Shown piece after piece: positions 1,327-36,523 of a stretch of DNA of 64,000 nucleotides. The notes beneath the pieces are model-generated. The model searched no databases and was not told the DNA's origin. It worked only from the letters and a program-made list of their open reading frames with translations. The number at the start of each line of letters is the position of its first letter. Positions within the stretch are counted from its first letter, which is position 1. A program made the position numbers and the translations under genes. The stretch is from Planococcus antarcticus DSM 14505. GTDB lineage: Bacteria > Bacillota > Bacilli > Bacillales_A > Planococcaceae. The stretch spans positions 1,616,501-1,680,500 of the forward strand of contig NZ_CP016534.2 in assembly GCF_001687565.2 (NCBI RefSeq). Reading direction: 5' to 3'.

Positions 1327-1354
1327 GGTTTACATATCATCAATTATCGGTAGC
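1327..1354. other. dif-like XerC/XerD site 1
   Basis: The arm GGTTTACATAT, a 6-bp centre CATCAA and the arm TTATCGGTAGC form a 28-bp site. Read on the minus strand, the arms resemble the Bacillus subtilis dif arms ACTTCCTAGAA (XerC) and TTATGTAAACT (XerD). It is one of five same-orientation copies in the window. It separates the secreted-protein block from the His-rich/metallophore block. Confidence 0.65.
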
Positions 1355-1423
1355 TGTCATTACTCTTATGTATATTAAAGAACTCGACAATCTTTGAACT
1401 GGCGTTGTAATATGAAGCTCTAA

Positions 1424-1486
1424 AAAAACACCTATGCTGCTCTTGTCAGATTTAATATCGGATACAGGCAGCATAGGTGTTTTTTC
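1424..1486. terminator. Bidirectional hairpin terminator
   Basis: An A-run plus ACACCTATGCTGC pairs with GCAGCATAGGTGT plus a T-run, with a long loop of about 28 nt. It can act in both directions. On the minus strand it lies downstream of the His-rich gene. It is about 70 bp past dif-like site 1. Confidence 0.7.
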
Positions 1487-1541
1487 CTGTGCTTCTAGCT
1501 ATTAGATTCGTCGGAAAGCATCAGAAGTGTTTGTAAAAATT

Positions 1542-1868
1542 CTACTTTACCGGAACTAATTCAACAGGGCCATGGTCGTCACAATGACCGTCATGAACTT
1601 GGTGCAGACGGTCATTCACTAGATAATCCACGTGATCACCATGTGGAACAAGTTCATGTCCGCAGTCGTTGTCGTTCCTACATCCGCAATTCATGGGTGC
1701 ACAAACATCTGGGTTCGTATCGGTAACAGAAATTCTGCATTCATCCCGGTGGCCTTCGTGTTCATGGTGAAGATGGCCATTGTGCACATAATCAATGTGA
1801 TCCTCATGCTTTATTTTCGTGTGGCCGCATGACAGATTATGCTGGTGGGAATGGTGCTCAGTGCTCAT
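1542..1868 (-). CDS. Histidine-rich metal-binding repeat protein
   Basis: A 108-residue protein with 20 His and 7 Cys. It holds two copies of a repeat of the form H-x-D-H-[IV]-D-Y-[VL]-x-[ND]-x-[RH]-L-H-x-x-H-[ED]-G-H, separated by a Cys-rich linker (CAPMNCGCRNDNDCGH). There is no signal peptide or membrane span, so it is probably cytoplasmic. Such spacing suits binding of zinc or another transition metal. It has a strong ribosome binding site (aaaggagg). It sits between dif-like site 1 and the metallophore operon, so a role in storing or buffering the imported metal is a fair inference. Similar small His-rich proteins are known in many bacteria, but their function is not established. Confidence 0.75.
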   Translation of the reverse strand: MSTEHHSHQHNLSCGHTKIKHEDHIDYVHNGHLHHEHEGHRDECRISVTDTNPDVCAPMNCGCRNDNDCGHELVPHGDHVDYLVNDRLHQVHDGHCDDHGPVELVPVK

Positions 1869-1911
1869 AAGAAAACCTCCTTTGTGTTTTTTTGATATTA
1901 GTACAATTTCC

Positions 1912-1941
1912 TTTTCTTAACTTTATTAAACGTTAAGAAAA
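1912..1941. promoter_or_regulatory. Inverted repeat upstream of His-rich gene
   Basis: Perfect 10-bp arms TTTTCTTAAC and GTTAAGAAAA are separated by 10 bp. It lies 44-73 bp upstream of the His-rich start codon, where an operator or promoter would sit. The binding protein is unknown. Confidence 0.45.
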
Positions 1942-2003
1942 TATACTTTCTTTTCGCAAAGATTATGCTTTTCACACTCCTTTTAAAAAGGTTTTTTAAA
2001 TTT

Positions 2004-2015
2004 GTAACCGGTTAC
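2004..2015. promoter_or_regulatory. Palindrome GTAACCGGTTAC
   Basis: A perfect 12-bp palindrome lies 136 bp upstream of the His-rich gene and about 570 bp before cntK. It resembles the AdcR zinc operator of streptococci (TTAAC-YR-GTTAA), but no AdcR gene is in the window and the likeness may be chance. Confidence 0.3.
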
Positions 2016-2429
2016 TTAAAACTGAACCACTTATGTAAGTCAATATATTTAAAAAATTCATTGCGGCTCATGGTTATCTTATTGCAAAAGATAAAAGTAG
2101 TTTAGCTGCAAATTCAAACTTTCAGCTAAAAGAAATAGCCAAAAAGGATTAAATTTTAACAGAAGAACCTGGCTATGAAGTAGTATACTGATTTGTTTTG
2201 AATCATCAAAACCTAGTTGAATAGATTTCGAAATTGACTTCCGGAAAAAGAAGATGGTGCCTGATACTACGTAATATCAGTGCAATAGAGGGAAGATGCT
2301 TAGTCAAGGGCGTCTTCTCTTTCTGTTTCAAATTAGTGTGCTTTGATGAGTGCATCTATTCACTAAATTTATTAGAAATTTGCATATTTATAAAAAGGTT
2401 GCAGTTTAAAAATAAAAAAGATATGATGT
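2016..2429. other. Intergenic DNA before the cnt operon
   Basis: There is no convincing gene here. A 65-codon frame at 2234-2431 has no ribosome binding site and a composition unlike the neighbours. A hairpin-like segment (about 2287-2325, GAAGATGC against GCGTCTTC with T-rich tail) may be an old terminator. The region looks like decayed DNA. Confidence 0.4.
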
Positions 2430-2450
2430 AAATCGTAATGATTACTTTTT
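2430..2450. promoter_or_regulatory. Zur box upstream of cntK
   Basis: AAATCGTAAT-G-ATTACTTTTT matches the B. subtilis Zur operator (TCGTAAT-N-ATTACGA). The left half is perfect and the right half matches 5 of 7. It predicts zinc-repressed transcription of cntK onward by the Zur encoded at 42209. Confidence 0.75.
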
Positions 2451-2575
2451 TCATATAAAGAGCATTTAAAAGAGATATGGATAGACAATACCTAACAGTT
2501 TATTGGGGTGATAAAAAGCGATAACAGAAAATAGGTTCTTAAAATCGTTAATAAGGAGGGATGAGGATTATTGTG

Positions 2576-3409
2576 ATGAAACAAGAGATAGAATTTATAA
2601 AATTAAATCCCACACAAAATATGACTATTCTTATAAAAACTAGTTATCCATTCGAAAAGCATTCCTACATTGCTTCAAGAGTAATGTCATATGACAGTGT
2701 CTATGCAGAACAAGTAGGTTTTATAGAAAAACCAGTAAATGCAGAAGCAGCTGCACATTTACAAATGGGTGGTAATGAATTTTGTGGCAATGCTTGCATG
2801 GCATTAGCAGCTTTTATTGCATCCGAAAAAGGGCTAAGACAAAACGATTCGACAGATGTATTATTAGAATCTTCAGGTACAGAACAATTAGTTATCTGTC
2901 AAGTTCAAAAAAAATCAGAAGTGTACTACTGTCAAGTTAATATGCCCATTCCTAAAAAGGTAGATTTGAAGATAGTTCATTTTGAAAATGAAGAGTTGAA
3001 TATAATAACAGTAAATTATCCTGATTTTATACATATTGTAATAGAAGTCGACGAATTCAATAACCGAATGAGAAAAAAAGCAGAAAATCTAGCAAGGTTG
3101 ATCGGAGCAACGTCGGGTACTAACTTAATTGGTGTTTTATTGTATAAATCTAAATCTGAAGAGCTGGCTCCTCTCATGTATGTTCCACATCTAGATAGCT
3201 TGATATGGGAAAGGGGGTGTGGATCCGGGACAGCATCTATAGGAGCTTACTTAGCATGGAGGAATAAAGGGGAAGTTGCTGTAAAAATAAGACAACCTGG
3301 CGGTATTATTACCGTAAACGCTGCATGTCATGAAGGAGAACTCACAAGCCTGAATATTGAAGGAAGTGTCAGCATCGTGGCACAAGGAAAAGCTTTTATA
3401 GATTGTTAA
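2576..3409 (+). CDS. cntK: Histidine racemase of opine metallophore synthesis
   Basis: Belongs to the diaminopimelate-epimerase fold family. In Staphylococcus aureus CntK converts L-histidine to D-histidine, the first building block of staphylopine. The two catalytic cysteines are visible: about C70 in GGNEFCGNA and C215 in WERGCGSGTASIG. The start IEF-x-K-x-NP-x-x-NMTIL and the end QPGG are as I recall for CntK rather than DapF. ATG 2576 is chosen because the GAGG at about 2563-2566 is well spaced for it; GTG 2573 and ATG 2561 are also in frame. It is the first gene of a nine-gene cnt set, 126 bp downstream of a Zur box. Confidence 0.88.
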   Translation: MKQEIEFIKLNPTQNMTILIKTSYPFEKHSYIASRVMSYDSVYAEQVGFIEKPVNAEAAAHLQMGGNEFCGNACMALAAFIASEKGLRQNDSTDVLLESSGTEQLVICQVQKKSEVYYCQVNMPIPKKVDLKIVHFENEELNIITVNYPDFIHIVIEVDEFNNRMRKKAENLARLIGATSGTNLIGVLLYKSKSEELAPLMYVPHLDSLIWERGCGSGTASIGAYLAWRNKGEVAVKIRQPGGIITVNAACHEGELTSLNIEGSVSIVAQGKAFIDC

Positions 3410-3433
3410 TTAATTCGATTAGGGGTGACATGA

Positions 3434-4228
3434 ATGATTGAGTTAAAGACTTTTTATGAATATTTAAATGACTTTTTAGAAAAGTTCGATGAAATAGCGG
3501 AAAACTACGATCATGCAACCGATAGGAGTTCTGAATTAGAGAATATAATTGATGACTACTCAAAGTTCATCACAAGTGAGAGCAATAAAGTAACGTGGGA
3601 ACAACTAGCACTACATAAATCTAGTGAGTTTGACCAGATTTTAACAGAGTTAAGAAAAAAATCAGCCTATTGTGTTGCTATTTTGGAAAAATACCGTGCG
3701 TTGAAACTACTGAATGGAAATAATGATGTGTCCGATTATTTTAAAAATATAGAGTCGTGTATTAAGACGGAATTTGGGAGTTTTCAAGCCGATTCTGAAT
3801 CCAAAGTATTGTTAATAGGATCTGGTTCTTTTCCGATGACACCGTTGTTAATAGCTCAGCAAACTGGAGCAGAGGTAGTTGGCACAGATATCGATGAGGA
3901 AGCCATTACACTGGGATTAAAAGTTGTAGAGAAGTTAGGCAATGGTTTAAATATCAGACTAGAACAATCAGTAGTGGAAGACCTTAATTTCACAAAAGAA
4001 GCAACCCATATCATTTTTAGCTCAACAGTTGGAATAAAGTACGAAATACTAGAGCAATTACATACTTTAACGAATGAAAATGTAGTCGTGGTCATGAGAT
4101 ATGGTGATCATTTGAAATCACTATTTAACTATCCAATGAAAAAGGTTAATGAAAAAAAATGGATGATGGTTGAAAATATTTTACGTCCTGACCACGTGTT
4201 TGATATCGCATTATATAAAAAAGCATAA
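3434..4228 (+). CDS. cntL: Nicotianamine synthase-like aminobutyrate transferase
   Basis: A 264-residue enzyme of the nicotianamine synthase-like family. CntL transfers the aminobutyrate part of S-adenosylmethionine onto D-histidine. The N-terminal half is helical and charged. The C-terminal half has a Rossmann SAM-binding region: VLLIGSGSFPMTPLLIA (about residues 124-140), then EVVGTDIDEEAI with the acidic ribose-binding residues. Length is close to the staphylococcal protein. The ribosome binding site is aggggtgacatga. The gene lies 24 bp after cntK and 26 bp before cntM. The order K-L-M is the diagnostic signature of staphylopine-type clusters. Confidence 0.88.
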   Translation: MIELKTFYEYLNDFLEKFDEIAENYDHATDRSSELENIIDDYSKFITSESNKVTWEQLALHKSSEFDQILTELRKKSAYCVAILEKYRALKLLNGNNDVSDYFKNIESCIKTEFGSFQADSESKVLLIGSGSFPMTPLLIAQQTGAEVVGTDIDEEAITLGLKVVEKLGNGLNIRLEQSVVEDLNFTKEATHIIFSSTVGIKYEILEQLHTLTNENVVVVMRYGDHLKSLFNYPMKKVNEKKWMMVENILRPDHVFDIALYKKA

Positions 4229-4254
4229 GCTTATATTTTAGAAAGGGAGAGTTT

Positions 4255-5571
4255 ATGAGTGATTTTAATCGAGTTTTAATTTTAGGAACTGGCCCTACTT
4301 CAATTCAACTTGCAGTAAATTTCAAAAAACATACAGGTTGTTACATAGCAATTGCAGGAAGAGAATCCGTTCGCTCAGAATCTTTTTTTTCAGCACTTGA
4401 GCAGAACAATCGTCAAATACACGCAAGCATTCAAAATGAAAAACATCGAACCATGAGAGGTGACGATTCTCTAGATCAAATTTTTGAAGGGTATGAAACC
4501 ATACTGGGGGAATGGGATACCATTATTCTATCTGTAACAACAGATGCCTATATAGAAGTTATCAAACAAATCAATGATAAAGTCCTAAAAAAAGTGAAAT
4601 GTATTATTTTGGTTTCTCCAACTTTTGGCTCCAATAACTTAATTAAGAATTATATCAGCAACTACAATTCAAACACAGAAATTATTAGTTTTTCTACGTA
4701 TTATGGTGATACTAGATGGGCCGATGAGAAGCCTTCAAACCGTATAATAACAACAGCTGTCAAGAAAAAAGTGTACTTAGGCTCTTCGCATCAAGCGTCT
4801 AAAAATATGGAAAGACTATACGATGTTTTTGAGCAATTAGGTATTGTGTTAAAAATGATGGATACACCTCTTGAGGCAGAAACAAGAAATATTTCTTTGT
4901 ATGTTCATCCTCCCTTGTTTATGAATGAATTTTCATTAAATGCTATATTCGGAAACTTAAATGATAAAAAATATGTGTATAAAGTATATCCGGAAGGACC
5001 TGTTACACAATATTTAATACGTGATATGTTATCTCAATGGAAAGAACTAATGATGCTTTTAGAGAAAATAAATATTAAAAGTATAAACTTACTTAAGTTT
5101 ATGACAGACGATAATTATCCAGTGAGATTGGAAAGTTTATCGCGTCGAGATATAGAAAGCTTTGTTGATTTAAAGACCATACATCAAGAGTACTTATTAT
5201 ATATTCGTTATACCTCACTATTAGTGGATCCTTTTTCAAAGCCAGATGAAGATGGAAGATACTTTGACTTTTCTGCGGTACCTATAAAAAAAATGTTTAT
5301 TAACAGAGAAGGGAAATGGGATATTCCAAGAATGCCAAAGGAAGATTATTACCGTATAAAAATAATACAAGGAATCGCAAAATACTTAAATTCAGATTGT
5401 CCAGTAATAGATAAGTTCATTCAGGCATATGAAAGTAAAATTCAAGAAGTTGTTCAATCTCATGAAACTGAATTATTATCTGATGCATTTTCCATACAAA
5501 GTTTTGAGGACGACATAAATATGATATGCAGTGAAATAGAGAAAAGTGTTAAAGCACAACAAAAGAATTAG
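4255..5571 (+). CDS. cntM: Staphylopine-type opine dehydrogenase
   Basis: A 438-residue enzyme that reductively condenses the CntL product with an alpha-keto acid using NAD(P)H, giving the finished metallophore. The N-terminal dinucleotide-binding motif is VLILGTGPTSIQLA (residues 7-20). A second motif, STYYGDTRW (147-155), lies in the region that faces the active site in this family. In known enzymes a single active-site Asp or Ala decides between pyruvate (staphylopine) and 2-oxoglutarate (pseudopaline). D152 may be that position, which would point to pyruvate, but this needs an alignment. The ribosome binding site is gaaagggagag. A second Zur box follows the gene. Confidence 0.88.
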   Translation: MSDFNRVLILGTGPTSIQLAVNFKKHTGCYIAIAGRESVRSESFFSALEQNNRQIHASIQNEKHRTMRGDDSLDQIFEGYETILGEWDTIILSVTTDAYIEVIKQINDKVLKKVKCIILVSPTFGSNNLIKNYISNYNSNTEIISFSTYYGDTRWADEKPSNRIITTAVKKKVYLGSSHQASKNMERLYDVFEQLGIVLKMMDTPLEAETRNISLYVHPPLFMNEFSLNAIFGNLNDKKYVYKVYPEGPVTQYLIRDMLSQWKELMMLLEKINIKSINLLKFMTDDNYPVRLESLSRRDIESFVDLKTIHQEYLLYIRYTSLLVDPFSKPDEDGRYFDFSAVPIKKMFINREGKWDIPRMPKEDYYRIKIIQGIAKYLNSDCPVIDKFIQAYESKIQEVVQSHETELLSDAFSIQSFEDDINMICSEIEKSVKAQQKN

Positions 5572-5607
5572 GACTTGCTTCGAAGAACCTACTAAATATG
5601 CTCTGTA

Positions 5608-5628
5608 AATCGTAATAGTTACTACTTT
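5608..5628. promoter_or_regulatory. Zur box upstream of cntA
   Basis: AAATCGTAAT-A-GTTACTACTT: the left half is a perfect Zur half-site, the right half matches 5 of 7. It lies 89 bp before the cntA start, in the gap between the biosynthesis genes and the transport genes. This implies a second zinc-controlled promoter inside the cluster. Confidence 0.7.
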
Positions 5629-5716
5629 AAAAATATCGGATTTTATAGTCAAGTTGCATCAAATCAGTAAAGCAAGACGGTTTAAACTAAATGTGATTAA
5701 AGGGAGAATAAATACA

Positions 5717-7327
5717 ATGTTAATAAAAAAAATTAAGGTTCTAGGTCTACTGTTATTGGTTTTATCTGTTCTGGCTGCCTGTTCTGAAGAAGACTCTGCG
5801 AATGAGAAAAAGAGTGATGAAACTGATAATGAGTTAGTTTATGCTGTTGCTCAGGATATTAATGATATGAACCCGCATTTATATACCGGTTCGATGCCGG
5901 CTCAAGGCATGGTCTATGAATCGTTAGTTGAAAACACAAAGGATGGGATTCAGCCATTGCTTGCTGAATCCTGGGAAATTTCTGAAGATGGCAAAGTATA
6001 CACGTTCTTCTTAAGGGAAGATGTGCAATTTCATGATGGAGAGCCGTTCAACGCTGAGGCAGTGAAGAAAAATCTCGATGCTGTACAGAGTAATGCAGAA
6101 AAGCATGCGTGGATTAAACTATCCACAAAAATGGAAAATGTGAACGTAGTAGATGAATATACTGTTGAATTGGAATTGTCCGAACCCTATTATCCAACGT
6201 TGGTTGAGTTGTCCATGACCCGGCCTTATGTATTTATCTCACCCAAAGATTTTGAAAATGGAGAAACCAAAGATGGTGTAAGTGGCTTTAACGGGACAGG
6301 CTCCTATGTGCTCACTGAACACAAAACTGCCGAATTTGCAACTTTTGAAGCAAATGAAGATTACTGGAATGGAGCGCCAGAAATTAAGAGGATAACGGCT
6401 AAAGTATTGCCGGCCGGAGAAACAACCCTTTTGGCATTGCAAAAAGGAGAGATCAATTTTGCATTTACGGATGATCGTGGTGCAGATAGTATCGCTGTTG
6501 AAGGCATGAATCAGTTGGAGGATTCTGGTGATTATCAACTCATCAGAAGTGAACCTATGAACACCAAAATGCTTGTAGCCAATAGCAGTAAAGCGGACAA
6601 CCCAATAAGTGAAACAGCTGTACGTGAAGCCATTTGGTATTCGATTGATAAAGAAACCATTAGCAAGGATATTCTTAATGGCACAGAATCAATGGCCGAA
6701 ACCCTATTTTCACCTAATGTGAATTATGCCGACGTTGATTTGAAGAAGCGTGGCTATGATGTAGAAAAAGCCATAGAGATTCTAGAAAAAAACGGTTGGA
6801 AATCAGAAAACAGCAGTGAAGCTAGAACGAAAGATGGAAAAAAATTAGAGATGAAACTTTACTATGATAGCAGCTCGTCTTCTCAGAAAACGCAGGCTGA
6901 GTTCATCCAAGCATCACTAAAAGAAATTGGTCTTCAACTGGAAATTACGGGGGAAGAGTCAACGTCAATTGCGAATAGAAGGGCCACAGGCGACTACGAT
7001 TTACTATTCAATCAAACTTGGGGTCTGGCGTATGATCCACAAAGTACAATCGCTGCTTTTACTTCTGAGGCTTCTTATTTGCATACAACAAAAGGCATTA
7101 AAAAAGAAGATGAGCTATACGACAACATTGAACAAGTTATGGTGTCGACAGATGAACAAGCTAGAAAAGCATTGTATGCCGAGATATTGACGACTGTTCA
7201 CGAAGAAGCTGTTTTTATTCCTATTTCAAACGGCGGGATGACTGTAATCGCGCCTCAAAATCTAACTGGAGTTTCATTCAAGCAGACTCAGTTTGAGCTG
7301 CCGTTCGAGTTGATGAACTTTAAATAA
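5717..7327 (+). CDS. cntA: Metallophore-binding lipoprotein of ABC importer
   Basis: An extracytoplasmic solute-binding protein of the nickel/peptide family (SBP_bac_5). It captures the metal-loaded metallophore outside the membrane. ATG 5717 is preferred over the longer frame because aaagggag precedes it by about 10 bp. It also gives a proper lipoprotein signal ending LSVLAAC (lipid-modified C22), followed by an acidic linker. Family features follow: MNPHLYTGSMPAQGMVYESL, LAESWEISEDGKVYTFFLR and VQFHDGEPFNAEAVKKNLD. Mature size is as expected for CntA. A hairpin after the gene probably keeps the permease message lower than the binding protein message. Confidence 0.87.
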   Translation: MLIKKIKVLGLLLLVLSVLAACSEEDSANEKKSDETDNELVYAVAQDINDMNPHLYTGSMPAQGMVYESLVENTKDGIQPLLAESWEISEDGKVYTFFLREDVQFHDGEPFNAEAVKKNLDAVQSNAEKHAWIKLSTKMENVNVVDEYTVELELSEPYYPTLVELSMTRPYVFISPKDFENGETKDGVSGFNGTGSYVLTEHKTAEFATFEANEDYWNGAPEIKRITAKVLPAGETTLLALQKGEINFAFTDDRGADSIAVEGMNQLEDSGDYQLIRSEPMNTKMLVANSSKADNPISETAVREAIWYSIDKETISKDILNGTESMAETLFSPNVNYADVDLKKRGYDVEKAIEILEKNGWKSENSSEARTKDGKKLEMKLYYDSSSSSQKTQAEFIQASLKEIGLQLEITGEESTSIANRRATGDYDLLFNQTWGLAYDPQSTIAAFTSEASYLHTTKGIKKEDELYDNIEQVMVSTDEQARKALYAEILTTVHEEAVFIPISNGGMTVIAPQNLTGVSFKQTQFELPFELMNFK

Positions 7328-7333
7328 GCTTTT

Positions 7334-7366
7334 TAAAAAAAGGGGAGATCTTCCCCTTTTTATTTA
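7334..7366 (+). terminator. Intra-operon hairpin between cntA and cntB
   Basis: An AAAAAGGGGA / TCCCCTTTTT stem with a short loop and a T-rich tail. No other promoter is obvious before cntB, so this is probably a partial terminator that raises binding-protein expression over permease expression. Confidence 0.65.
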
Positions 7367-7416
7367 TGAAAAGTACAAAAGTTTAGTGGGTAGCTATTTT
7401 ATGGAAGGAGATTTTT

Positions 7417-8349
7417 ATGAAAAGATACATCATTAGAAGGATGCTCGTATCTATGCCTTTACTTTTAGTCATTTCATTTTTGACGTTCGTCTTAATTAAT
7501 CTTTCTCCCATGGATCCGGCTGAAGTGATACTGCAAGCGCAAGGAGTTCCACAAATAACAGACGAACTAGTAGAGCAGACAAAAGAAGAATTCGGGATGG
7601 ATCAGCCATTTATTCTAAGATATTTTGATTGGCTCGTTTCATCCTTACAATTAGACTTTGGTGATTCGTATATTAATGGGAAACCAGTATGGTCATTACT
7701 AGGTCCGGCCTTTTTTAATACATTCAAATTGACATTAATTTCATCGATAGCAATTATCTTGGTATCTATAGTATTAGGAGTAGTCTGTGCATTAAATGAA
7801 GGGAAGATGATAGATAAATCGGTAAGGGGCATTTCTTTTTTCTTAACCGCAATGCCATCATACTGGTTGGCTACCCTTATGATTTGGTACTTCTCGGTAA
7901 AGCTAGACTTGTTGCCCACAAGCGGAATGGATTCATATAAAAGTTATATCCTACCAGTTGTTGTTATCACAATCAGTTATGCTGGTCTCTATTTTAGAAA
8001 TGTCAGGACCTCTATGATCAATAATTTGAATGAGGACTATGTTCTTTATGGAAGAGCATCGGGGTTACCAGAAAAGAAAATAACCATGCACATCCTGCGG
8101 AATTCATTGCAAGTATCCATTTCAATATTTGGTATGGCCATACCCATCATATTAGGAAGCACAGTTGTTATTGAGAATGTTTTTGCTTGGCCAGGGTTAG
8201 GAAGTCTAAGTGTGAGAGCAATTCTTAGCAGAGATTTCCCTATTATTCAGGCATACGTGCTCGTCTTAGCCGTAGCCTTTGTGTTGTTTAATGCAATCTC
8301 GGACATTATTAATGCTGCAATGAATCCCAAGCTAAGGAATGATCTGTAA
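7417..8349 (+). CDS. cntB: Metallophore ABC importer permease 1
   Basis: A 310-residue inner-membrane permease of the DppB/NikB family. The N-terminal motif MKRYIIRRMLVSMPLLLVISFLTF is the first membrane span of this family, and about six spans are visible. The EAA loop that contacts the ATPase is at YGRASGLPEKKITMHILRNS (about 210-229). The C-terminus has the common VIENVFAWPGLGSL segment. The ribosome binding site is ggaaggag. Its stop codon is immediately followed by the ATG of cntC, so translation is coupled. Confidence 0.87.
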   Translation: MKRYIIRRMLVSMPLLLVISFLTFVLINLSPMDPAEVILQAQGVPQITDELVEQTKEEFGMDQPFILRYFDWLVSSLQLDFGDSYINGKPVWSLLGPAFFNTFKLTLISSIAIILVSIVLGVVCALNEGKMIDKSVRGISFFLTAMPSYWLATLMIWYFSVKLDLLPTSGMDSYKSYILPVVVITISYAGLYFRNVRTSMINNLNEDYVLYGRASGLPEKKITMHILRNSLQVSISIFGMAIPIILGSTVVIENVFAWPGLGSLSVRAILSRDFPIIQAYVLVLAVAFVLFNAISDIINAAMNPKLRNDL

Positions 8350-9234
8350 ATGAGGATATTAAAAAACTTAAGTAAGGATAAGTTGGCTTTGCTATCTTTG
8401 CTGATTATTGTCTCTACAATTATTGCAGGTATTTTCGCGCCTTTATTCGCACCGTTTGATCCTAATGAAGTTAATATGAGCCTTCGGTACGCATCTCCTT
8501 CATGGGAGTACCTATTGGGCAATGATCATCTAGGCAGGTGCATTTTATCAAGAATCATTTATGGAATTCGACCAAGTATCTTATGGGTATTGGTAGTTTT
8601 ATTTATTTCTGTCCTAATAGGCGCATTTTTAGGCTTTCTTGCCGGCTATTTTAAAGGAAAAGTCGATGCAGTCATTATGAGAATATGCGATACGATGCTT
8701 TCATTTCCGGGATACGTAATGGCTTTGGCGGTTATTGGTATATTCGGCGTGGGTCTCCAAAATATCCTAATTGCTTTTGCCCTAATTAAATGGGCATGGT
8801 TTGCACGAGTCATCAGAGCGTCTGTTATGCAATACGCTGAATTAGACTATGTGAAGTTTTCCAAAGCATCAGGAATTAGTGATACACAAATAATCTTCAG
8901 ACACATCATCCCAGTGACTTTCGCTGATATTGCCGTCATATCAAGCAGCTCCATTGGGTCGATGATATTACAAATTTCTGGATTTTCATTTTTGGGATTA
9001 GGAATTCAAGCACCTACTCCTGAATGGGGAATGATGTTAAATGAAGCGAGAGAAGTTATGTTCACTAGACCGGAATTAATGCTAGTACCTGGGTTAGCTA
9101 TTGTCATTGTGGTATCAGCATTTAATTTTTTATCCGACTCGCTCCAAGTTGCGTTGGATCCTAAACTAGTTACCTCAAAAAAAAGAAAGAAAGAGAACTT
9201 ATCTCTATTTAAAAAAAGGGAGCTCAGTAAGTGA
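8350..9234 (+). CDS. cntC: Metallophore ABC importer permease 2
   Basis: A 294-residue DppC/NikC-type permease, partner of the preceding gene. It has an N-terminal span (LALLSLLIIVSTIIAGIFAPLFAPFDP), the family motif LLGNDHLGRCILSRIIYG near residue 56-73 and an EAA loop around KASGISDTQIIFRHIIPV. It starts directly at the end of cntB and overlaps the start of cntD. The basic tail (KKRKKENLSLFKKRELSK) is longer than usual but unremarkable. Confidence 0.87.
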   Translation: MRILKNLSKDKLALLSLLIIVSTIIAGIFAPLFAPFDPNEVNMSLRYASPSWEYLLGNDHLGRCILSRIIYGIRPSILWVLVVLFISVLIGAFLGFLAGYFKGKVDAVIMRICDTMLSFPGYVMALAVIGIFGVGLQNILIAFALIKWAWFARVIRASVMQYAELDYVKFSKASGISDTQIIFRHIIPVTFADIAVISSSSIGSMILQISGFSFLGLGIQAPTPEWGMMLNEAREVMFTRPELMLVPGLAIVIVVSAFNFLSDSLQVALDPKLVTSKKRKKENLSLFKKRELSK

Positions 9235-28765: not shown

Positions 28766-29016
28766 GATATAATAAAGAATAAATTCACAAAATTTAATGA
28801 AAATTCTGCTTAAATTTATACTAGTTGTTGCACATAAATATGCAACGAGAAAATTCGATAATCACTTGAATTATTTGATTAAAATAATTGGTTTATACAA
28901 TTTGAATGAATAAAGATACGGTAGTCTGCTATTGAGGGAATGAAAAAAGGTTGAGCGAACTGCGAGACTTTGGGTATACTAACTAAGCAGAAAATTTTAA
29001 TAAAGGGGTTAAGAGA
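28766..29016. other. Flank between the IS and the yfcC-like gene
   Basis: About 250 bp of AT-rich DNA holding only the expected promoter and leader region of the transporter gene (ribosome binding site aaaggggtta). No other feature is seen. Confidence 0.5.
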
Positions 29017-30531
29017 ATGGAAGAAGAGAAAAAGCAACAGAAGGAATGGAAAGTTCCACATACATTTGTCATCGTTTTTTTCATTGTGGCCCTGGCTGCT
29101 ATTTCGACCTATTTCGTGCCGGTCGGTCAGTTTGAGACAGAAGAAATCACGTACGGCGAAAGCGGAGCAGAGTCGACACGAACCGTACTGATTCCAGAAA
29201 GCTTTTCGTTTGTAACAGACGGTGAAGGAGATTTTGTCTATCTTGGCACTTCACTTTTTGAAGCGGGGGGTGGAGTAGGGTTTCTGAACTATGTATTTGA
29301 AGGCTTAGTATCAGGAGATAAATGGGGTTCAGCTGTTGGGGTTGTTGCCTTTATCCTGATTATCGGTGGCGCATTCGGAATTATTCTCCGCACCCGTGCT
29401 GTAGAAGAAGGGATATTAAGAGTCATAGATAAAACACAAGGCCGGGATGTACTGATTATCCCTGTCATGTTCTTTCTCTTTTCACTGGGCGGTGCTGTAT
29501 TCGGAATGGGAGAAGAAGCGATTGCTTTTGCCATAATTCTTGTTCCGATTATGATTCGACTCGGCTATGATGCGATAACCGGCATACTCATTACATATGT
29601 CGCGACCCAAATCGGATTTGCAACCTCGTGGATGAACCCTTTTAGCGTAGCAATCGCGCAAGGGATTGCCGATATTCCGGTTCTCTCAGGTGCCCTGTTC
29701 CGTGTGATAATGTGGGCTGTCTTCACAATTATAGGAATTATCTTTACTTGGCATTATGCATCGCGTATCAAAAAAGATCCTCAGCGTTCACCTTCTTATA
29801 AATCTGATGCTTTTTTCCGAAAAGAAGCAGAGAAATTTGCACATTTGGCATCCAACTTTACACTAGGCCATGCATTGGTTATCGGAACTCTCGTAGCCGG
29901 TATTATATGGATTATTTGGGGAGTAATAGAGCATGCTTATTTTATACCTGAAATAGCAACCCAGTTCTTTACGATTGGTCTGATTGCTGGTATTATCGGC
30001 GTAATCTTCAAGCTGAATGCCATGCGGGTGGACGATATTGCAGATAGTTTTATCGAGGGTGCTAAAGATTTGCTCCCGGCTGCACTCATTGTCGGGATGG
30101 CAAAAGGCATTGTGATAATCCTTGGTGGTGACAGTCCGGATATGCCTTCTATTCTCAATACCATGCTTTATGGGGCCGGACAACTAATAGGAGATTTTCC
30201 TGCTATGCTATCCGCGGTTTTCATGTATGGATTTCAGTCCGTTTTCAATTTCTTCGTCGTTTCCGGATCCGGCCAAGCTGCTCTTACGATGCCTTTAATG
30301 GCACCGCTTGCAGACATCGCAGGTGTTTCCCGGCAAGTGGCTGTATTGGCGTTTCAGTTGGGGGATGGACTGACCAACATCTTTGTTCCAACTTCTGCAG
30401 CGTTGCTAGGAACGCTTGGTGTCGCGCGACTGGATTGGGGAGTGTGGGCAAAATTTATCTTTAAATTTCTTTTGCTCCTAATGGCATTATCGTGTATTTT
30501 CATTGTGATCGCCGTGTTAATCGGTCTTTGA
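29017..30531 (+). CDS. YfcC-family membrane transporter
   Basis: A 504-residue protein with about 12-13 spans. The N-terminal block WKVPHTFVIVFFIVALAAISTYFVPVGQFE is the hallmark of the YfcC family (related to arginine/ornithine antiporters and C4-dicarboxylate carriers). Conserved loops include FGMGEEAIAFAIILVPIMIRLGYD and VVSGSGQAALTMPLMAPLADIAGVSRQ. Next to an isoaspartyl dipeptidase it probably imports a peptide or amino-acid substrate. This gene pair is common in Bacillales. The start ATG has ribosome binding site aaaggggttaag. Confidence 0.8.
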   Translation: MEEEKKQQKEWKVPHTFVIVFFIVALAAISTYFVPVGQFETEEITYGESGAESTRTVLIPESFSFVTDGEGDFVYLGTSLFEAGGGVGFLNYVFEGLVSGDKWGSAVGVVAFILIIGGAFGIILRTRAVEEGILRVIDKTQGRDVLIIPVMFFLFSLGGAVFGMGEEAIAFAIILVPIMIRLGYDAITGILITYVATQIGFATSWMNPFSVAIAQGIADIPVLSGALFRVIMWAVFTIIGIIFTWHYASRIKKDPQRSPSYKSDAFFRKEAEKFAHLASNFTLGHALVIGTLVAGIIWIIWGVIEHAYFIPEIATQFFTIGLIAGIIGVIFKLNAMRVDDIADSFIEGAKDLLPAALIVGMAKGIVIILGGDSPDMPSILNTMLYGAGQLIGDFPAMLSAVFMYGFQSVFNFFVVSGSGQAALTMPLMAPLADIAGVSRQVAVLAFQLGDGLTNIFVPTSAALLGTLGVARLDWGVWAKFIFKFLLLLMALSCIFIVIAVLIGL

Positions 30532-30580
30532 TTCATTCGTTCCAAGGGCTATTCAACTATAAAGAAAGGGGATTGAAAAG

Positions 30581-31753
30581 ATGCTGACTCTCATAAAGAA
30601 TGGTGAGGTTTTTACTCCGGAATCAGTCGGGAAAAAAGATATTCTTCTGATTGGCGGGAAAATAGGGCTTATTGCTGAAGAGATAGCAGTACCCCCTTTT
30701 CCTATTGAAGTTAACGTAATTGAAGCGGCTGGTAAAATAGTTGCCCCGGGATTCATTGATGCCCATGTTCACATTATGGGCGGAGGTGGAGAAGGCGGAT
30801 ATCGGACACGCACCCCTGAACTTCAGCTGACAGATGCGACACTGGCCGGCGTCACCACCCTTGTCGGCGTAATTGGGACAGATGGTACGACCCGTACCAT
30901 GTCCGCATTGATAGCAAAAGCGAAAGGGCTGAAAGAAGAAGGCTTGTCGTGCTATGTTCATACGGGATCTTACCAGGTACCAGTCAAGACACTGACAGAA
31001 ACAGTGGAAAATGATTTGATTTTAATTGAAGAGGTGATTGGTGTAGGTGAAATCGCGATTGCAGATCATCGCTCATCTCAGCCAACGGTAGAGGAACTGG
31101 CAAAAATCGCTTCCGCTGCCAGAATCGGCGGAATGCTCTCCGGAAAAGCAGGGATCGTAAATGTCCATGTCGGTGATAGTCCGGATTGTTTATCACTTAT
31201 CGAAAAAGTAATCGAGACTACGGATATTCCAATCAAGCAGTTTTATCCGACACATATTAATCGCAACCCATATCTGTTTGACGCAGGCATTGTTTATGCC
31301 AAAAAAGGCGGCTACGTAGATTTCACCACAAGTACGATTCCGAAATTTCTGGCTGAAGGTGAAGTGAAGGCAAGTTCTGCCTTGAGACAAATGCTTGAGG
31401 CTGGCGTGGACCCTAGTCTGATAACCTTTACTTCTGATGGACAGGCAAGTCTGCCGGACTTCGGCCCGGAAGGTGAATTCAGAGGTCTACAGCTCGGGAA
31501 AGTCGACTCGCTTTTCAAAGCGGTACGTGAAGCAATCTCCGAGGAGGGCGTATCAGTACCAGATGCTTTGCGAACAGTAACAGCGAATCCAGCATCGATT
31601 TTAAAACTGAATTCCAAAGGAATTATTGAAAAAGGCAGGGATGCCGATTTGGTCTTGATAAATCAGGAAGACTTCGAAATCGATACGGTTTTAGCATCAG
31701 GGAAAATAATGGTCCAAGATGGCAAGCCTGTTGTCAAAGGGACATTTGAGTAA
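30581..31753 (+). CDS. iadA: Isoaspartyl dipeptidase (beta-aspartyl peptidase)
   Basis: A 390-residue metallo-enzyme of the amidohydrolase superfamily that cleaves isoaspartyl dipeptides arising from protein damage. Zinc motif 1 is APGFIDAHVHIMGGGGEGG. The substrate-binding loop is GTDGTTRT, the bridging residue region VGEIAIADHRSSQP, the later histidines are in NVHVGDSP and FYPTHINRN, and the catalytic Asp is in FTSDGQASLP. The C-terminus closes with the family strand GRDADLVLI. The ribosome binding site is agaaagggga. It follows the transporter by 49 bp, in one operon. Confidence 0.85.
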   Translation: MLTLIKNGEVFTPESVGKKDILLIGGKIGLIAEEIAVPPFPIEVNVIEAAGKIVAPGFIDAHVHIMGGGGEGGYRTRTPELQLTDATLAGVTTLVGVIGTDGTTRTMSALIAKAKGLKEEGLSCYVHTGSYQVPVKTLTETVENDLILIEEVIGVGEIAIADHRSSQPTVEELAKIASAARIGGMLSGKAGIVNVHVGDSPDCLSLIEKVIETTDIPIKQFYPTHINRNPYLFDAGIVYAKKGGYVDFTTSTIPKFLAEGEVKASSALRQMLEAGVDPSLITFTSDGQASLPDFGPEGEFRGLQLGKVDSLFKAVREAISEEGVSVPDALRTVTANPASILKLNSKGIIEKGRDADLVLINQEDFEIDTVLASGKIMVQDGKPVVKGTFE

Positions 31754-32167
31754 TCGAACGTCACAGAACGAAAGTATCATTTTGTTTAACCATATACTAA
31801 CGCAGGAATTGGTAAGAAGATTATTTGCTTTGCAGGAACTCTCTTATGGATGTTTGTTGACCCGACATTCGTAAGAGTTTTTTGGCTTAATGGGCAACTG
31901 TATTGAGAAAGTGAACTCAGTCCCGTTTAATGGAAAGTTTAATACAAGATATTTTACACTCTCGTTTTTAGAAAAGTTCTAAAATAATCAAAAAGGTAGA
32001 GATTCTTGTTTAAAACATTTACCCAACTATGTGGGTTATTTCCAAGCTGCCTCTGCTCCTAAAAGCCATAATGATAATAGCAACTCTTAAGAGAAAAAAT
32101 TTAGTGGCCTCGATTTAAACTTCTTCAAACAAAAGGCGCAACTAAAAAGGAATAAGGAGCTGGTAGA
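31754..32167. other. Intergenic DNA with a weak terminator
   Basis: Contains a weak hairpin with T-run (about 31837-31882, AACTCTCTTATG against CGTAAGAGTT) that may end the iadA operon, and an IS256-type end relic at 31944. Nothing else is supported. Confidence 0.45.
31944..31964. repeat. Solitary IS256-type right-end sequence
   Basis: AAGATATTTTACACTCTCG differs at only one base from the right end of the IS256-family element (AAGATATTTTACGCTCTCG), in the same orientation. No transposase is attached. Together with the opposite end at 25531 it may mark the limits of a former larger insertion. Confidence 0.6.
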
Positions 32168-32913
32168 GTGGAGAGCATAGAAATGGTACGAAAATTTTAT
32201 GATGAGAAAGTAGACTGTGAATGGAAAAAGCTGGAACGACACAAAATCGAGTATGAATTGACGAAACGCTTCCTTAAGCGCTATATCAAACCGATGGACA
32301 AAGTATTGAACTCGGTGGTAGTCTGGGAAAATTTGCGTTGCATCTCACGAGCTAGGCTGTGAGGTGACTTTAGTCGACTTGCCGCCGAATAATGTAGCCC
32401 TTGGGTTGGATAAGGCAAAAGAACTTGGACTGTCACTGCAGATATATGTGTCGACAGTCAGGATTTATCAAACATCAGTGATAACCAATTCAGAACATCA
32501 CGGAATGTTTGAAGGTATTAAAACCTGGCGGAACAGTCTTTGTTGCCTTCGTGTCGTCTTATTCATTTGTCTGGGATTATCTTGCTCAAAATCCGCAGTT
32601 TATCTTGGAAGAGGAAAGAAAAGCGCAATTGGAAGTCCTCTTCAAACACGGCAATTGCGTTGGACAAGGCTTTACCGATAAGTTCTTTATGCGTCCAAAA
32701 GAGGTGCTTTCGTTTTTTGAGCAATTCAATCTTGAAAAGCTGCATGTTTTGAATTGTGAAAGTTTCCTCTATTTGCGGGAAGTCGAACTTCTGAAACAGT
32801 CTCCGGAAGTTGTTGCTGCTTGGCTCGATCTGGCTGAGCAAGCATGCGAAAGCAAAGATTTATTGAGTTTAGCCGAACTTATTATGTACAACGGGAAGAA
32901 AACTGGGGAATAA
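32168..32913 (+). pseudogene. SAM-dependent methyltransferase, frameshifted
   Basis: Three frames together read as one class I methyltransferase. 32168-32362 gives MESIEMVRKFYDEKV..KPMDKVL, then the glycine-rich motif is scrambled by a frameshift. From about 32330 another frame gives GCEVTLVDLPPNNVALGLDKAKELGL (motif with ribose-binding Asp). 32509-32913 gives LKVLKPGGTVFVAFVSSYSF and the C-terminus. The segment between GL and LKVLKPGG is shortened. At least two frameshifts plus a deletion make it non-functional. It lies just left of dif-like site 4. Confidence 0.78.
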
Positions 32914-32954
32914 TTAGTGAATGAGTGGAAAGTGAAATTTAGAATCCAATGAGT

Positions 32955-32983
32955 AGTTTACATATCATAACGTTATCGGAAGA
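32955..32983. other. dif-like XerC/XerD site 4 (7-bp centre)
   Basis: The arm AGTTTACATAT, centre CATAACG and arm TTATCGGAAGA. The arms are as good as in site 3 but the centre is 7 bp, not 6, which may reduce or abolish recombination. Same orientation as the others. Confidence 0.6.
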
Positions 32984-33017
32984 GAAAGAACTAGATATCG
33001 AGTTCTTTCTTTTTTTA
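32983..33017 (+). terminator. Hairpin terminator next to dif-like site 4
   Basis: AGAAAGAACT pairs with AGTTCTTTCT across an 8-nt loop, followed by seven T. It begins where the dif-like site ends. Confidence 0.75.
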
Positions 33018-33211
33018 TGGACACACCTTGCTTAAAAGCTTCGAATAGTAAAGTGGATTAACATATCCATTAAACCTTCTTGTAATTCATGAAAAAAGGA
33101 TAGATTTTTCAACTTGTGATATTGTATTTATATGGTACTAGTTCTAAATAAAGTAACAGCTAAGTAGTGTGTAAAAGAAAATATATGCAGCGAGTGAGGC
33201 CAATAGTTTTA

Positions 33212-33970
33212 ATGAGAAAAGTGATCCTAGAGGTTGATAATTTAGTGAAAACATATAAAGGAAAAGAAGTTGAAATTGAAGCCTTAAAAGGAATCTCCTT
33301 TAACCTATATGCTGGAGAATTCGTTGCGATTATGGGGACAAGTGGCTCAGGGAAGAGTACATTGTTAAATGTATTAGGAGCATTGGATGAGCCAACCAGT
33401 GGCCACATACGATTAAACGGTGTAAATTCAGAAGATTTCTTTGTAGAGCCTAAAGCAACGGACTACCGTAGAGAAAACATCGGATTTATTTTTCAAGCTT
33501 ATAATTTGCTGAAAGATCTAACGGTGGAAGAAAATATTTCGCTACCACTGCTGTTGAAAAATGAATCAAAAGAAACCATCGACAGAAAAACAGCCAACAT
33601 GATCGAACGGATGGGTTTAACAAAGTGGAAGAAGCATCGTCCTGTCCAATTATCTGGTGGACAGCAACAACGAATCGCGATTGGTCGTGCTCTTATCGGC
33701 GACCCCCCAATTCTATTGGCGGACGAACTGACCGGAAACCTAGATGCGAATACTTCCAGTGAAATTCTAGATGTATTGACGTCAATGAAGAAAGAACTCA
33801 ACCAAAGTATACTTGTGGTTACGCACGATTCAAAAGTGGCCACTTATGCAGATCGAGTCCTGTTTTTTCATGATGGTAAAATTACTAATGAGTATGAATG
33901 TTCCGGTGACAAAGATCTTGAAAAAATCATGAAAATCTCTCAGGATATCTTAAAAGGTGCCAATGAATGA
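33212..33970 (+). CDS. ABC transporter ATPase (LolD/MacB type)
   Basis: An ATPase of about 252 residues from ATG 33212. The frame is open to 33167, but the extra residues (CKRKYMQRVRPIVL) are not typical, and no ribosome binding site is strong for either. Walker A is MGTSGSGKST, the Q-loop IFQAYNLL, the signature LSGGQQQR and Walker B ILLADELTGNLD, with ELTGNLD typical of the LolD/MacB/YtrE group. It overlaps the permease gene by ATGA. No two-component sensor genes are adjacent, so it is probably not a bacitracin-type resistance module. The exported substrate is unknown. Confidence 0.83.
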   Translation: MRKVILEVDNLVKTYKGKEVEIEALKGISFNLYAGEFVAIMGTSGSGKSTLLNVLGALDEPTSGHIRLNGVNSEDFFVEPKATDYRRENIGFIFQAYNLLKDLTVEENISLPLLLKNESKETIDRKTANMIERMGLTKWKKHRPVQLSGGQQQRIAIGRALIGDPPILLADELTGNLDANTSSEILDVLTSMKKELNQSILVVTHDSKVATYADRVLFFHDGKITNEYECSGDKDLEKIMKISQDILKGANE

Positions 33971-36456
33971 AATCACTTAATCAGTTGGCGTTCCGTTTAT
34001 TCAGAGAAAACAAATTTCTAGTCTTTACCTCGATTGCCAGTATCGCAATCGCTGTATCTCTTGTGTTGACCATGACGCTTTTTACGGTTAATGCAAAACA
34101 AACTCTTCAAGAAGACCTCCGAACGATGTACGGTGATATGGACATTGCCTTTGTCTATAGCGATGAAAATCCTGTAGAAAACGAGCAAGAATTGTTTCAA
34201 GCTGTAGCAAACCATCCTTCGACGACTGCTATTTCGCAAGCACTAGTCACACAAGCATATGTAGCACCGTTGGGTGGAGAAGTGTATGGACTGGGAATTG
34301 AGAACGATGCTATCGCTAAGAGTAGATATAAAACGACCGTAAATTTGAAGGAAGATACTGTCGCTATTACAGAAAACCTGGCGAAATCGTTAAAGCTTTC
34401 TAAGGGCGACTCTATCGAGATTGAGCAAGATGTCTTCAAAATTGCAGAAATTCTAAAGAATGCCCAAGGAACAGGAATCGCTCCTGATATGGTCATTTTT
34501 GAACTAGAACGAGCGAAACAGTTTAACCAGTCCGGTCTACCAAATTCTAAAAATGAAACCACTGCTTTAATGGTAAAAACCAAAGAAGACACCGACTTGA
34601 TTGCCATGGCCAATGAAGTTAAAAAAATCCAGCCTGACTTGCGTGTCGACATTATTGAACAAGACGAAGTAGCAAAAAGTAACTTGAATTCGCTCTCTTT
34701 ATTTATTATCATCCTTTCAATACTGATTTTGATTGTTACTTCCATTATGGTGATTTCTAATTTCGACTTATTTATTTACAAGAATAAAAACCAATTTGCG
34801 ATTATGCGCGCGCTTGGCGCTAAAACAAACCAATTGGCTAAAGTGATCCGAATTCAAAGTACAGCAATAACCGTTGTAGGTGCTCTACTGGGATTGGTGA
34901 TTTCGTATGTAGCTGATCAATTCCTTCAACCAATATTTGGGCGTTTATTTTCCGTTTCACTTTCTCAGGCACCATTTGCATGGGAAGTGGCCATTCCCGT
35001 TGTCGTCGGGTCAAGTCTGGTGATTCAATTGTTCCTCTATATTCCAGTTCTCAAATCAGCAAAGATTTTACCGTTAACTATTTTACAAGAAAATGAAGAA
35101 CTTGATTTTAAAAATAGGAAAATGCGTCGGTTAGTAGTGAAAGTGCTATGGATTGCTTCTCTTGTATCGCTGTTGTTTGGTGTTATTCTTGCTGCAAATG
35201 ATCATGCAAGAGCGATGCTGATTTTGTCGAGTGGATTCTTCCTAATGACAGGTCTTTTTATGGCCTTGCCTCTGTGGCTTACTAGCCTGTTAAATGTAGG
35301 AGTGCCAGCGTACGGAAAGTTTTTATCTAGCAATGTTCTCATTGCCATTCAGAATTTAAAGCCACAAATCAAAAAGAATAGCTTCGTTATTCTTTCGATT
35401 AGCGTGGTTATGATTATCGCAGTTTTCGGTTCGGTCATGCTGACTAATATTGAACACAATAATACCGATTATATCCAAGAGCAATTTCCTACTTCTGTAG
35501 TCATCACGAGCCGAATTCAGCAATCTGAAATCGATCCGGCTGAGTTGGCCGGAGAAATACGCGAATTAGTACCAAATGTGAAAGTTGAAACGGTCAGTAC
35601 CTTTGGTGGGGCGCATCTATTCGACAATACTAACCAGTCAATCTCTTTTGACTACACCCTAGCAGATTTAGCGACTTTAGAAAACATGGAGATTCTACCG
35701 GAATTAACCGAAGTGGAATTGGCAAAAACAGCAATCATCTCCCCCGCATTTGCACAGCAACACAAGTTAACTATTGGCGATTCCATGGATATCGGCATCT
35801 ATTCTGACGATAAGCAGCAAGCAGAGTATATAACAACCATGAGGGTCGGTGCCATTTCTTCTGCAGTTACTGAAGGAGAAGTTCTTTTTGATTGGCAAGC
35901 GAAAGCTCTAAACAATCCTTCGACCAACTTTTATAAAGCATATGTAGACTCGCTTGATGAATCAGAAGTTATCAATTCTTTTGAAAGCGTAACAAGTGTG
36001 TATCCAGAACTCGTAGTCAATACGTATGCAGCGTCATTAGAAGAAGCTTCCGCTATGTTTCTGCAACGCTGGGCCATCTTCATTTTGGTTTTGATTGTAC
36101 TGGTTGTTTCTGTGATGGCTGGAGTTTTAAATACGCTTCTTAACAACATACTCGCTAAAAGAAAAAAGTTTGCAATACTAAGGACAATCGGTGTCAAACC
36201 AACAGGAATTGTGAAAATCATTGTAACGCAAATTTCTTTTTATCTGGTGATTGGCCTTACTTTTGGTGTGCTATCTGAGCTGGTGTTTACCCTCATCGTG
36301 TCACTTATCGACTCTGGCCCGGTTGCAATGAACTTTACTTTAATCGTGGGATTAGCAGCTGCTATGTGGCTTGCTAGCTTGCTTATCTTTGTGCCCGTAG
36401 GATGGGTAATGGCAAATAAAAAAATCAGTATGGAAATTCTAAGCGATAATAAGTAA
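33967..36456 (+). CDS. FtsX-like ABC permease
   Basis: An 829-residue membrane protein. There is an N-terminal span (residues about 15-38), a large extracellular domain, then three spans (about 235-365). In the middle there are more spans, then a second extracellular domain and a last group of three spans (about 700-820). Both span groups carry FtsX landmarks: KNQFAIMRALGAKTNQLAKVI and KKFAILRTIGVKPTGIVKII. Such mechanotransmission permeases with a LolD-type ATPase move lipids, peptides or toxins from the membrane. The gene ends 39 bp before dif-like site 5, so the pair is the whole cargo of the last module. Confidence 0.83.
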   Translation: MKSLNQLAFRLFRENKFLVFTSIASIAIAVSLVLTMTLFTVNAKQTLQEDLRTMYGDMDIAFVYSDENPVENEQELFQAVANHPSTTAISQALVTQAYVAPLGGEVYGLGIENDAIAKSRYKTTVNLKEDTVAITENLAKSLKLSKGDSIEIEQDVFKIAEILKNAQGTGIAPDMVIFELERAKQFNQSGLPNSKNETTALMVKTKEDTDLIAMANEVKKIQPDLRVDIIEQDEVAKSNLNSLSLFIIILSILILIVTSIMVISNFDLFIYKNKNQFAIMRALGAKTNQLAKVIRIQSTAITVVGALLGLVISYVADQFLQPIFGRLFSVSLSQAPFAWEVAIPVVVGSSLVIQLFLYIPVLKSAKILPLTILQENEELDFKNRKMRRLVVKVLWIASLVSLLFGVILAANDHARAMLILSSGFFLMTGLFMALPLWLTSLLNVGVPAYGKFLSSNVLIAIQNLKPQIKKNSFVILSISVVMIIAVFGSVMLTNIEHNNTDYIQEQFPTSVVITSRIQQSEIDPAELAGEIRELVPNVKVETVSTFGGAHLFDNTNQSISFDYTLADLATLENMEILPELTEVELAKTAIISPAFAQQHKLTIGDSMDIGIYSDDKQQAEYITTMRVGAISSAVTEGEVLFDWQAKALNNPSTNFYKAYVDSLDESEVINSFESVTSVYPELVVNTYAASLEEASAMFLQRWAIFILVLIVLVVSVMAGVLNTLLNNILAKRKKFAILRTIGVKPTGIVKIIVTQISFYLVIGLTFGVLSELVFTLIVSLIDSGPVAMNFTLIVGLAAAMWLASLLIFVPVGWVMANKKISMEILSDNK

Positions 36457-36495
36457 ATAGAAGAGAATTTGATAATGCGAACATGTTTATAATTG

Positions 36496-36523
36496 AGTTT
36501 ATATATGAGAGATTATCGGAATT
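36496..36523. other. dif-like XerC/XerD site 5
   Basis: The arm AGTTTATATAT, centre GAGAGA and arm TTATCGGAATT. It is the right-most copy, with more mismatches than site 3. To its right begins conserved Bacillales gene order (ispH on). To its left a stretch AATAGAAGAGAATT is shared with the flank of site 3. Confidence 0.62.

Follow-up and report, generated by a model that had tools for sequence, protein, structure and literature searches.

The chromosome of Planococcus antarcticus DSM 14505 contains about eight islands of gene cassettes bordered by dif-like sites, and the stretch analysed here (the window: 64,000 nucleotides, C1:1616501-1680500 of the 3.80-Mb genome) holds one of them. By their sites, modules and exchange the cassettes are dif modules, and in layout the islands are integron-like. 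Judging from sequence comparison with related genomes (G005, G007 and so on), the modules have very probably been exchanged at the sites themselves. The overall explanation we favour, and consider fairly probable, is that of cassette islands with Xer sites at the module borders and a resolvase site (res) at the head. A first-pass annotation of the window had placed five dif-like sites there in a single orientation, and all five were found again at the exact coordinates on the + strand; in the following list the letters denote classes of the variable centre (G, CGCAGC; C, CATGAG; D, GACACC; T, TCCGGA).

1327..1354, + strand: dif-like site 1, centre CATCAA (class C), position weight matrix score 32.7 bits
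12126..12153, + strand: dif-like site 2, centre GACACC (class D)
25587..25614, + strand: dif-like site 3, centre AGCAGC (class G with one mismatch), perfect arms
32955..32983, + strand: dif-like site 4, 7-bp centre CATAACG (class C)
36496..36523, + strand: dif-like site 5, centre GAGAGA (no class)

Measured against the arm pair AGTTTACATAT/TTATCGGAAGT, the sites at 1327, 12126, 25587, 32955 and 36496 have 3, 3, 0, 1 and 2 mismatches, respectively; the arms, described in the annotation as common to all five, are similar throughout and not identical, being perfect at 25587 only. The claim that all sites lie between genes holds for four of them, which overlap none of the listed open reading frames (ORFs) of at least 70 aa, and fails narrowly at 12126, where the site enters the end of a doubtful 92-aa ORF by 11 bp. 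The best other match inside the window has 6 arm mismatches, which is the chance level; with up to 5 mismatches allowed, 20 mononucleotide shuffles averaged 0.95 matches over five spacings and both strands, and dinucleotide shuffles gave none for the exact pattern and none for the pattern with ≤3 mismatches. Across the whole genome, 24 places with a 6-bp centre and 4 with a 7-bp centre match at ≤3 mismatches, the threshold at which the reversed pattern returned no match. A chance origin of the sites is ruled out by the shuffles together with the reversed-pattern controls. A further chromosomal site, at 2018981, lies beyond these 28 places, bringing the genome total to 26 module-type chromosomal sites, one plasmid site and the true dif. 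The search for this chromosomal dif, which the annotation had suggested, led to a candidate at 1879280 (1.879 Mb), assigned because of its centre TATATA, its arm end CATAA and its location opposite dnaA, which begins at position 1. The plasmid site accounts for both matches on contig C2; that contig (31009 bp) represents two head-to-tail copies of one 15.5-kb plasmid, duplicated in assembly.

The sites are a property of the genus. With at most one mismatch the pattern occurs in all 46 genus genomes, 2 to 32 times per genome, and a control pattern matched once over the same set. In the family, 129 of 261 genomes have a match at ≤2 mismatches; outside the genus this is mostly a single match with the dif sequence, and module-type sites occur in some genomes of genera g4, g5 and g12. 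Perfect sites in named genomes fall into 19 stretches, 15 from Planococcus or Planomicrobium and the remaining four from Thalassobacillus, Chryseomicrobium, Cytobacillus and Exiguobacterium, and two stretches of the viral collection match the site pattern. An even scatter over core intergenic DNA, the outcome that the annotation had set against its own proposal, is ruled out: the sites are clustered in accessory islands, and the number and location of the sites vary by species. Only one of 188 sites lies inside an ORF of at least 110 aa, 19 of 187 have a 7-bp centre, and the median module length is 2.3 kb (141 modules between sites of the same orientation). Close inverted pairs about 84 bp apart were also seen (G016:C5:553/637, G008:C14:16779/16866 and G045 near C1 1.77 Mb), their centres often being of the plasmid type (CCCGAA, CACAGG or related sequences).

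Evidence for the exchange comes from the ends of homology between islands of P. antarcticus, G005, G007, G008, G010 and the named contigs (pieces of at least 200 bp). The 229 homology pieces have 423 usable ends, and at 37 of these both partners have a site no more than 10 bp away (300 shifts as the null: mean 0.03, maximum 1); in all 44 site pairs the homology extends from the site in the same direction in both partners. Furthermore, whole modules match in 16 pairs among 154 modules (at least 60% of both), with the orientation relative to the sites conserved in all 16 and with neighbours that are mostly not shared (32 positions: 14 array ends, 17 different, 1 alike). The coincidence of block borders with sites, which the annotation had proposed to look for in other strains, is thus borne out in other species. 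As a separate observation, Cytobacillus gottheilii and Exiguobacterium sp. s146 have a MerR-Hsp33 module in common (L036:2898-4771 and L041:3136-5009), whose 99% identity over 1818 bp points to recent transfer between families.

The exchanging enzyme is likely to be XerC/XerD, as far as sequence can indicate. Both proteins are encoded in the genome, with scores of 399 bits for TIGR02225 (cut-off 330) and 339 bits for TIGR02224 (cut-off 335). At the four of eight tyrosine-recombinase (PF00589) places that were tested, no integron integrase was found, the best TIGR02249 score being 161 bits against a cut-off of 265.

Many sites form part of a larger composite junction. A common element of about 90 bp links 102 of 210 flanks on the XerC side (R flanks), and the complete junction consists, in this order, of the dif-like site, a terminator hairpin with a T run and a degenerate copy of CGTTCGTAAAAGTGTACTTTTACGAACG, which we interpret as site I of a resolvase. 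The frequency of terminator-like hairpins is 48% in 188 R flanks, 6% in L flanks and 5% at random places, and 78 junctions contain both a dif-like site and a site I at the thresholds used. The intact 28-bp form of CGTTCGTAAAAGTGTACTTTTACGAACG occurs at 11 places in the genome at ≤3 mismatches (control 0). Seventeen aligned leaders share three inverted-repeat subsites, of which subsite I measures 28 bp and subsites II and III were read by eye; because of this layout we take the leaders to be res sites. Leaders are alike in 132 of 136 pairs, and homology is lost within 30 bp after the site-I centre in 113 of the 132, after 31-80 bp in 17 and later in 2. The leader was confirmed at all five further heads inspected, namely P. 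antarcticus 1781130, G012, G023 and two heads of G062, a genome of another genus with one of its heads on a smaller contig. In P. antarcticus, five of eight islands, including that of the window, carry a res head on their origin (ori) side and in the polarity of the sites (1307987, 1616199, 1781130, 2019579 and 3605078). Beside the head near 2.02 Mb lies a divergent gene for a 205-aa serine resolvase (PF00239; L062:7748-8365), and the resolvase beside the head of the P. versutus plasmid pPS15-1, annotated as 'recombinase family protein', has Bin3, gamma-delta and Sin as its nearest solved structures. No resolvase gene was found beside the window head, and action in trans is therefore predicted there. 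A XerS-like tyrosine recombinase was considered as the enzyme of the palindrome and rejected as less likely, XerS scoring above its cut-off in 3 of 20 genomes and the palindrome occurring in 11 of 20; the three-subsite layout and the adjacent serine resolvase fit better. XerS-like genes were nonetheless encountered: one stands with a Fic gene at the terminus (ter)-side end of the 3.56-Mb island (G000:C1:3559471-3561577, L053), a locus 83% alike on pPS15-1 (L163), and G062 has several XerS copies.

In the window the following junction parts were identified.

25624..25671, + strand: terminator-like hairpin with T run beside the XerC arm of site 3 (-20 kcal/mol, z -5.3, equalled by 0 of 200 shuffles)
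25668..25695 (C1:1642168-1642195), + strand: resolvase site-I-like sequence, 3 arm mismatches
32984..33016, + strand: terminator hairpin with T run at site 4 (-10.1 kcal/mol, z -2.9, equalled by 3 of 200 shuffles)

Homologies that extend at least 150 bp beyond the element and end at junctions were used to locate breakpoints. On the ori side (n = 33), the dif-like site is the end point of 18 and site I that of 15, with none between; of the 14 on the ter side, 6 stop at site I, 4 slightly left of site I and the other 4 at the dif-like site. In G010, G027 and G045 a 0.85-kb cassette begins at site I after unrelated DNA. Our reading is that each junction has two crossover points, with the qualification that class-specific elements can themselves fix alignment ends. 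These elements, about 110 bp long and repeated at 80-90% identity, invite another explanation, in which homologous recombination between the repeats (or natural transformation) moved the modules and the sites are mere repeated borders. We judge this improbable, given that no ori-side homology ends between the two 28-bp sites, even if the elements may fix alignment ends, and that modules also match between loci whose junctions have only the dif-like arms in common. More serious is the proposal of plain dif modules of the Acinetobacter type, with XerC/XerD acting alone, the hairpin serving as an insulating terminator and site-I remnants and res heads surviving as plasmid relics. The homology borders at dif-like sites would be expected from it, small Planococcus plasmids with single sites exist, and some modules, such as that shared by Cytobacillus and Exiguobacterium, have no site I at all. 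We nevertheless consider it unlikely, since the ori-side edge repeatedly carries a res head that follows the polarity of its island (29 of 30 palindromes over seven genomes, P. antarcticus contributing only its five heads) and site I, by the counts above, is also a place where long homologies break. The res head could be the insertion point of incoming cassettes, a suggestion drawn from these sequences that we hold at slightly below an even chance.

Many sites have the same centre: the 168 sites with a 6-bp centre form 370 pairs of equal centre, far above the 41 predicted from independent positions, a number that includes the effect of relatedness. From ori to ter the classes follow the order CGCAGC > CATGAG > GACACC > TCCGGA, with 21 GC steps against 0 CG, 23 CD against 5 DC and 11 DT against 0 TD. 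In total, 56 steps follow the cyclic order (mean 25.3 and maximum 42 in 5000 within-array shuffles), a count to be read with the classes and their order having been chosen post hoc; the runner-up of the six cyclic orders scores 33. By genome, p is 0.0005 in G045, 0.003 in G027, 0.005 in G008, 0.015 in P. antarcticus and 0.044 in G005. The ordered centres suggest slots rather than free insertion, and the identity of a centre might serve as its address, for which we see nearly, but not quite, as much to be said as against.

Several results weigh against this picture of res-headed, centre-addressed islands. The centre order is not significant in G007 (p 0.08) and G010 (p 0.20), the four classes are nearly absent from G012 and G023, and both end classes are kept in only 6 of 16 matched module pairs, albeit with 0.9 expected. 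The palindrome was not found at ≤3 mismatches near three of the eight P. antarcticus islands, and 58 of the 78 site-I copies at junctions have at least 4 mismatches in the left arm. Only one of the five window sites, 25587, has the full junction; 32955 has the hairpin alone, no site I having been found after it. Finally, over 156 sites the score shows no trend towards or away from the ori side (rho -0.07, p 0.41), so that an insertion order cannot be read from site decay and ordered insertion at the head gains no support.

The sites have a polarity relative to the replichores. The XerD arm faces ori in 119 of 123 sites of P. antarcticus, G005, G007, G012, G023, G027 and G045, and in all 34 islands of these seven genomes the majority of sites does so, both counts including related and thus non-independent species; the terminus was set to half the genome length in G005, G012 and G023, and the contig start of G027 differs from dnaA. 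Islands are the fairer unit because sites derived from one another keep their orientation within an island. The remaining four sites are two pairs, one in G007 and one in G045, the latter following a palindrome of its own at 1781967. A fixed gene direction was rejected as the cause, co-direction being too loose (327 ORFs with the site and 148 against, 69% co-directed). Such uniform polarity would let a ter-directed DNA translocase reach each site from the XerD side, the side from which FtsK reportedly acts (Bonne et al. 2009). In Escherichia coli, FtsK-orienting polar sequences (KOPS) direct ori-to-ter movement and FtsK activates XerD (PMC2680272; PMC5357621). That a translocase is the reason for the polarity is conceivable, yet on balance doubtful. 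The same polarity could be invoked for KOPS-like polar signals of chromosome organisation or segregation with genes caught between them by accident, an idea we regard as hardly credible for sites that are clustered among accessory genes, differ so widely in number between genomes and bound exchanged modules.

Taken together, we hypothesise the following mechanism for the res-headed islands. Modules would be cut and joined at the dif-like sites, most likely by the host XerC/XerD, and resolvase genes adjoining some heads would serve other heads in trans. A circle that brings in a junction would use either the res head or a dif-like site of matching centre as its insertion point, whereby the strong res site would remain at the edge and a weaker site I would be left at the cassette border; at a later stage XerC/XerD would remove cassettes or exchange them among sites whose centres are alike. 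Tentatively, and as no more than one possibility, we picture an integron-like platform that lacks an integron integrase and combines res entry, Xer exchange, centre addresses, insulation by terminators and alignment with replication and ter-directed translocation. Two housekeeping or plasmid recombinases in a genus-wide cassette system would show a gene-capture platform arising anew; moreover, the accessory gene islands of Planococcus would be accounted for, with centre identity, polarity and the res head as testable rules.

Integrons collect attC cassettes at attI by means of IntI and are, to our knowledge, known chiefly outside Bacillota. The Planococcus islands share with them an edge marked by a strong site with a conserved leader, cassette borders that each have a weaker site related to it, and cassettes that often consist of one or two genes, whereas their sites are serine-resolvase and Xer sites instead of attI/attC and the four Xer-type proteins tested include no integron integrase. 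In Tn3-type transposon and plasmid resolvase-res systems (Sin, Bin3, gamma-delta), exchange at res sites is known in principle, and Kholodii is said to have written in 2001 of a 'shuffling function of resolvases'. The 205-aa resolvase and a three-subsite res with site I furthest from the gene agree with these systems; isolated site-I copies at Xer-module borders and a chromosomal array with the full res at its edge do not. With elements that exploit XerC/XerD and with plasmid cer/psi sites the islands have in common the use of the host recombinases at dif-like sites and extra sequence beside the XerC arm, but here this sequence is a terminator plus resolvase site and not ArgR/PepA accessory DNA, and the elements are cassettes, not phages or whole plasmids.

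Closest are the dif/pdif modules of Acinetobacter (reviewed in PMC9501444), with 28-bp XerC/XerD sites, 11-bp arms and a 6-bp variable centre (PMC12907356; PMC9501444), and with chromosomal and plasmid module arrays that carry adaptive cargo and have no integrase of their own (PMC12907356). The Acinetobacter modules lie between alternating C/D and D/C sites (PMC12907356), whereas those of Planococcus lie between direct repeats, with a few close inverted pairs, and are further distinguished by replichore polarity, ordered centre classes, terminator hairpins, site I, res heads and a Bacillota host. The first-pass annotation had regarded a chromosomal Xer-driven cassette array as undescribed; a chromosomal 'dif module island' with multiple modules has, however, already been described in Acinetobacter (PMC12907356), and therefore the setting and form in Planococcus are new and the kind is not. 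The open PubMed Central matches listed contain no dif-module or res-headed cassette island from Planococcus or other Bacillota, which does not establish absence from print.

The island in the window consists of four modules and adjoins a core gene.

1355..12125, + strand: module 1, staphylopine-type metallophore cluster (Pfam)
12154..25586, + strand: module 2, catabolic cluster (Pfam)
25696..32954, no single strand: module 3, Mutator-type transposase, DDE transposase, DcuC carrier and amidohydrolase (Pfam)
33017..36495, + strand: module 4, ABC ATPase and FtsX/MacB-type permease (Pfam)
36928..37935, - strand: lytB/ispH core gene adjoining the island

The Pfam scan agrees with the coherent cargo that had been ascribed to each block. 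Module 1 encodes an epimerase-like protein, a nicotianamine-synthase-like protein, staphylopine dehydrogenase, a solute-binding protein, two permeases, two ATPases and an MFS protein. Its dehydrogenase is found at E≤1e-60 in 3 of 46 genus genomes, two of these just 38% identical, and megablast of the module against plasmids gave no match. Module 2 comprises two LacI regulators, SnoaL-like proteins, an HpcH/HpaI aldolase, an SSF symporter, an iron-containing alcohol dehydrogenase and an aldehyde dehydrogenase. The transposases of module 3 are on the - strand, its carrier and amidohydrolase on the + strand; at 25862-28704 the Mutator-family reading frame is interrupted by the DDE transposase gene. 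Module 4 matches a G008 module between CATCAG and GACACC sites at 76% identity over 94-95% of both and thus belongs to one of the 16 whole-module pairs described above. The absence of an integrase from the region, also claimed in the annotation, is corroborated: none of the eight tyrosine-recombinase places of the genome lies within the window, and the Pfam scan of 30 window proteins detected transposases but no site-specific recombinase.

The last site had been taken as the border with conserved chromosome. This does not hold, as homology to relatives resumes at 36.80-36.94 kb, some 0.3-0.4 kb beyond site 5, and at the opposite end breaks off at window -0.27 to -0.58 kb; neither outer site is an exact border. 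The core sequence to the right has a match in every one of the 46 genus genomes; among 29 relatives compared by means of 1.5-kb flanks, 18 have the left flank immediately next to it. Longer flanks, used for 13 genomes, show a gap free of sites in G009 (0.4 kb), G024 (0.7 kb), G037 (2.8 kb) and G031 (7 kb) and one of 10 kb with three sites in G027, the left flank not being found beside the right core in the other eight. As the flanks adjoin or sit close in relatives, we regard about window -0.3 to 36.87 kb as accessory. The left-edge res palindrome (C1:1616199-1616226, window -301 to -274) lies about 1.6 kb outside site 1, and 2.5 kb of homology with G027 (78%) ends at its right end before the sequences diverge.

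Cargo sampled elsewhere includes GNAT acetyltransferases, an APH-like kinase, MerR, AraC and LysR regulators, a sigma factor, an MFS transporter, a tRNA-synthetase-like protein, GGDEF/EAL proteins and an aldo-keto reductase, among others. No family was assigned to 9 of 30 scanned small-module proteins, and none of 10 tested proteins matched the defence systems of PADLOC. Rfam gave no match in the window and one pan motif in L055. To the left of the window, a 120-bp unit is repeated in tandem (L052:1078-1828, C1 about 1605077-1605827), and repeats related to it stand in relatives beside the core gene to the right of the island.

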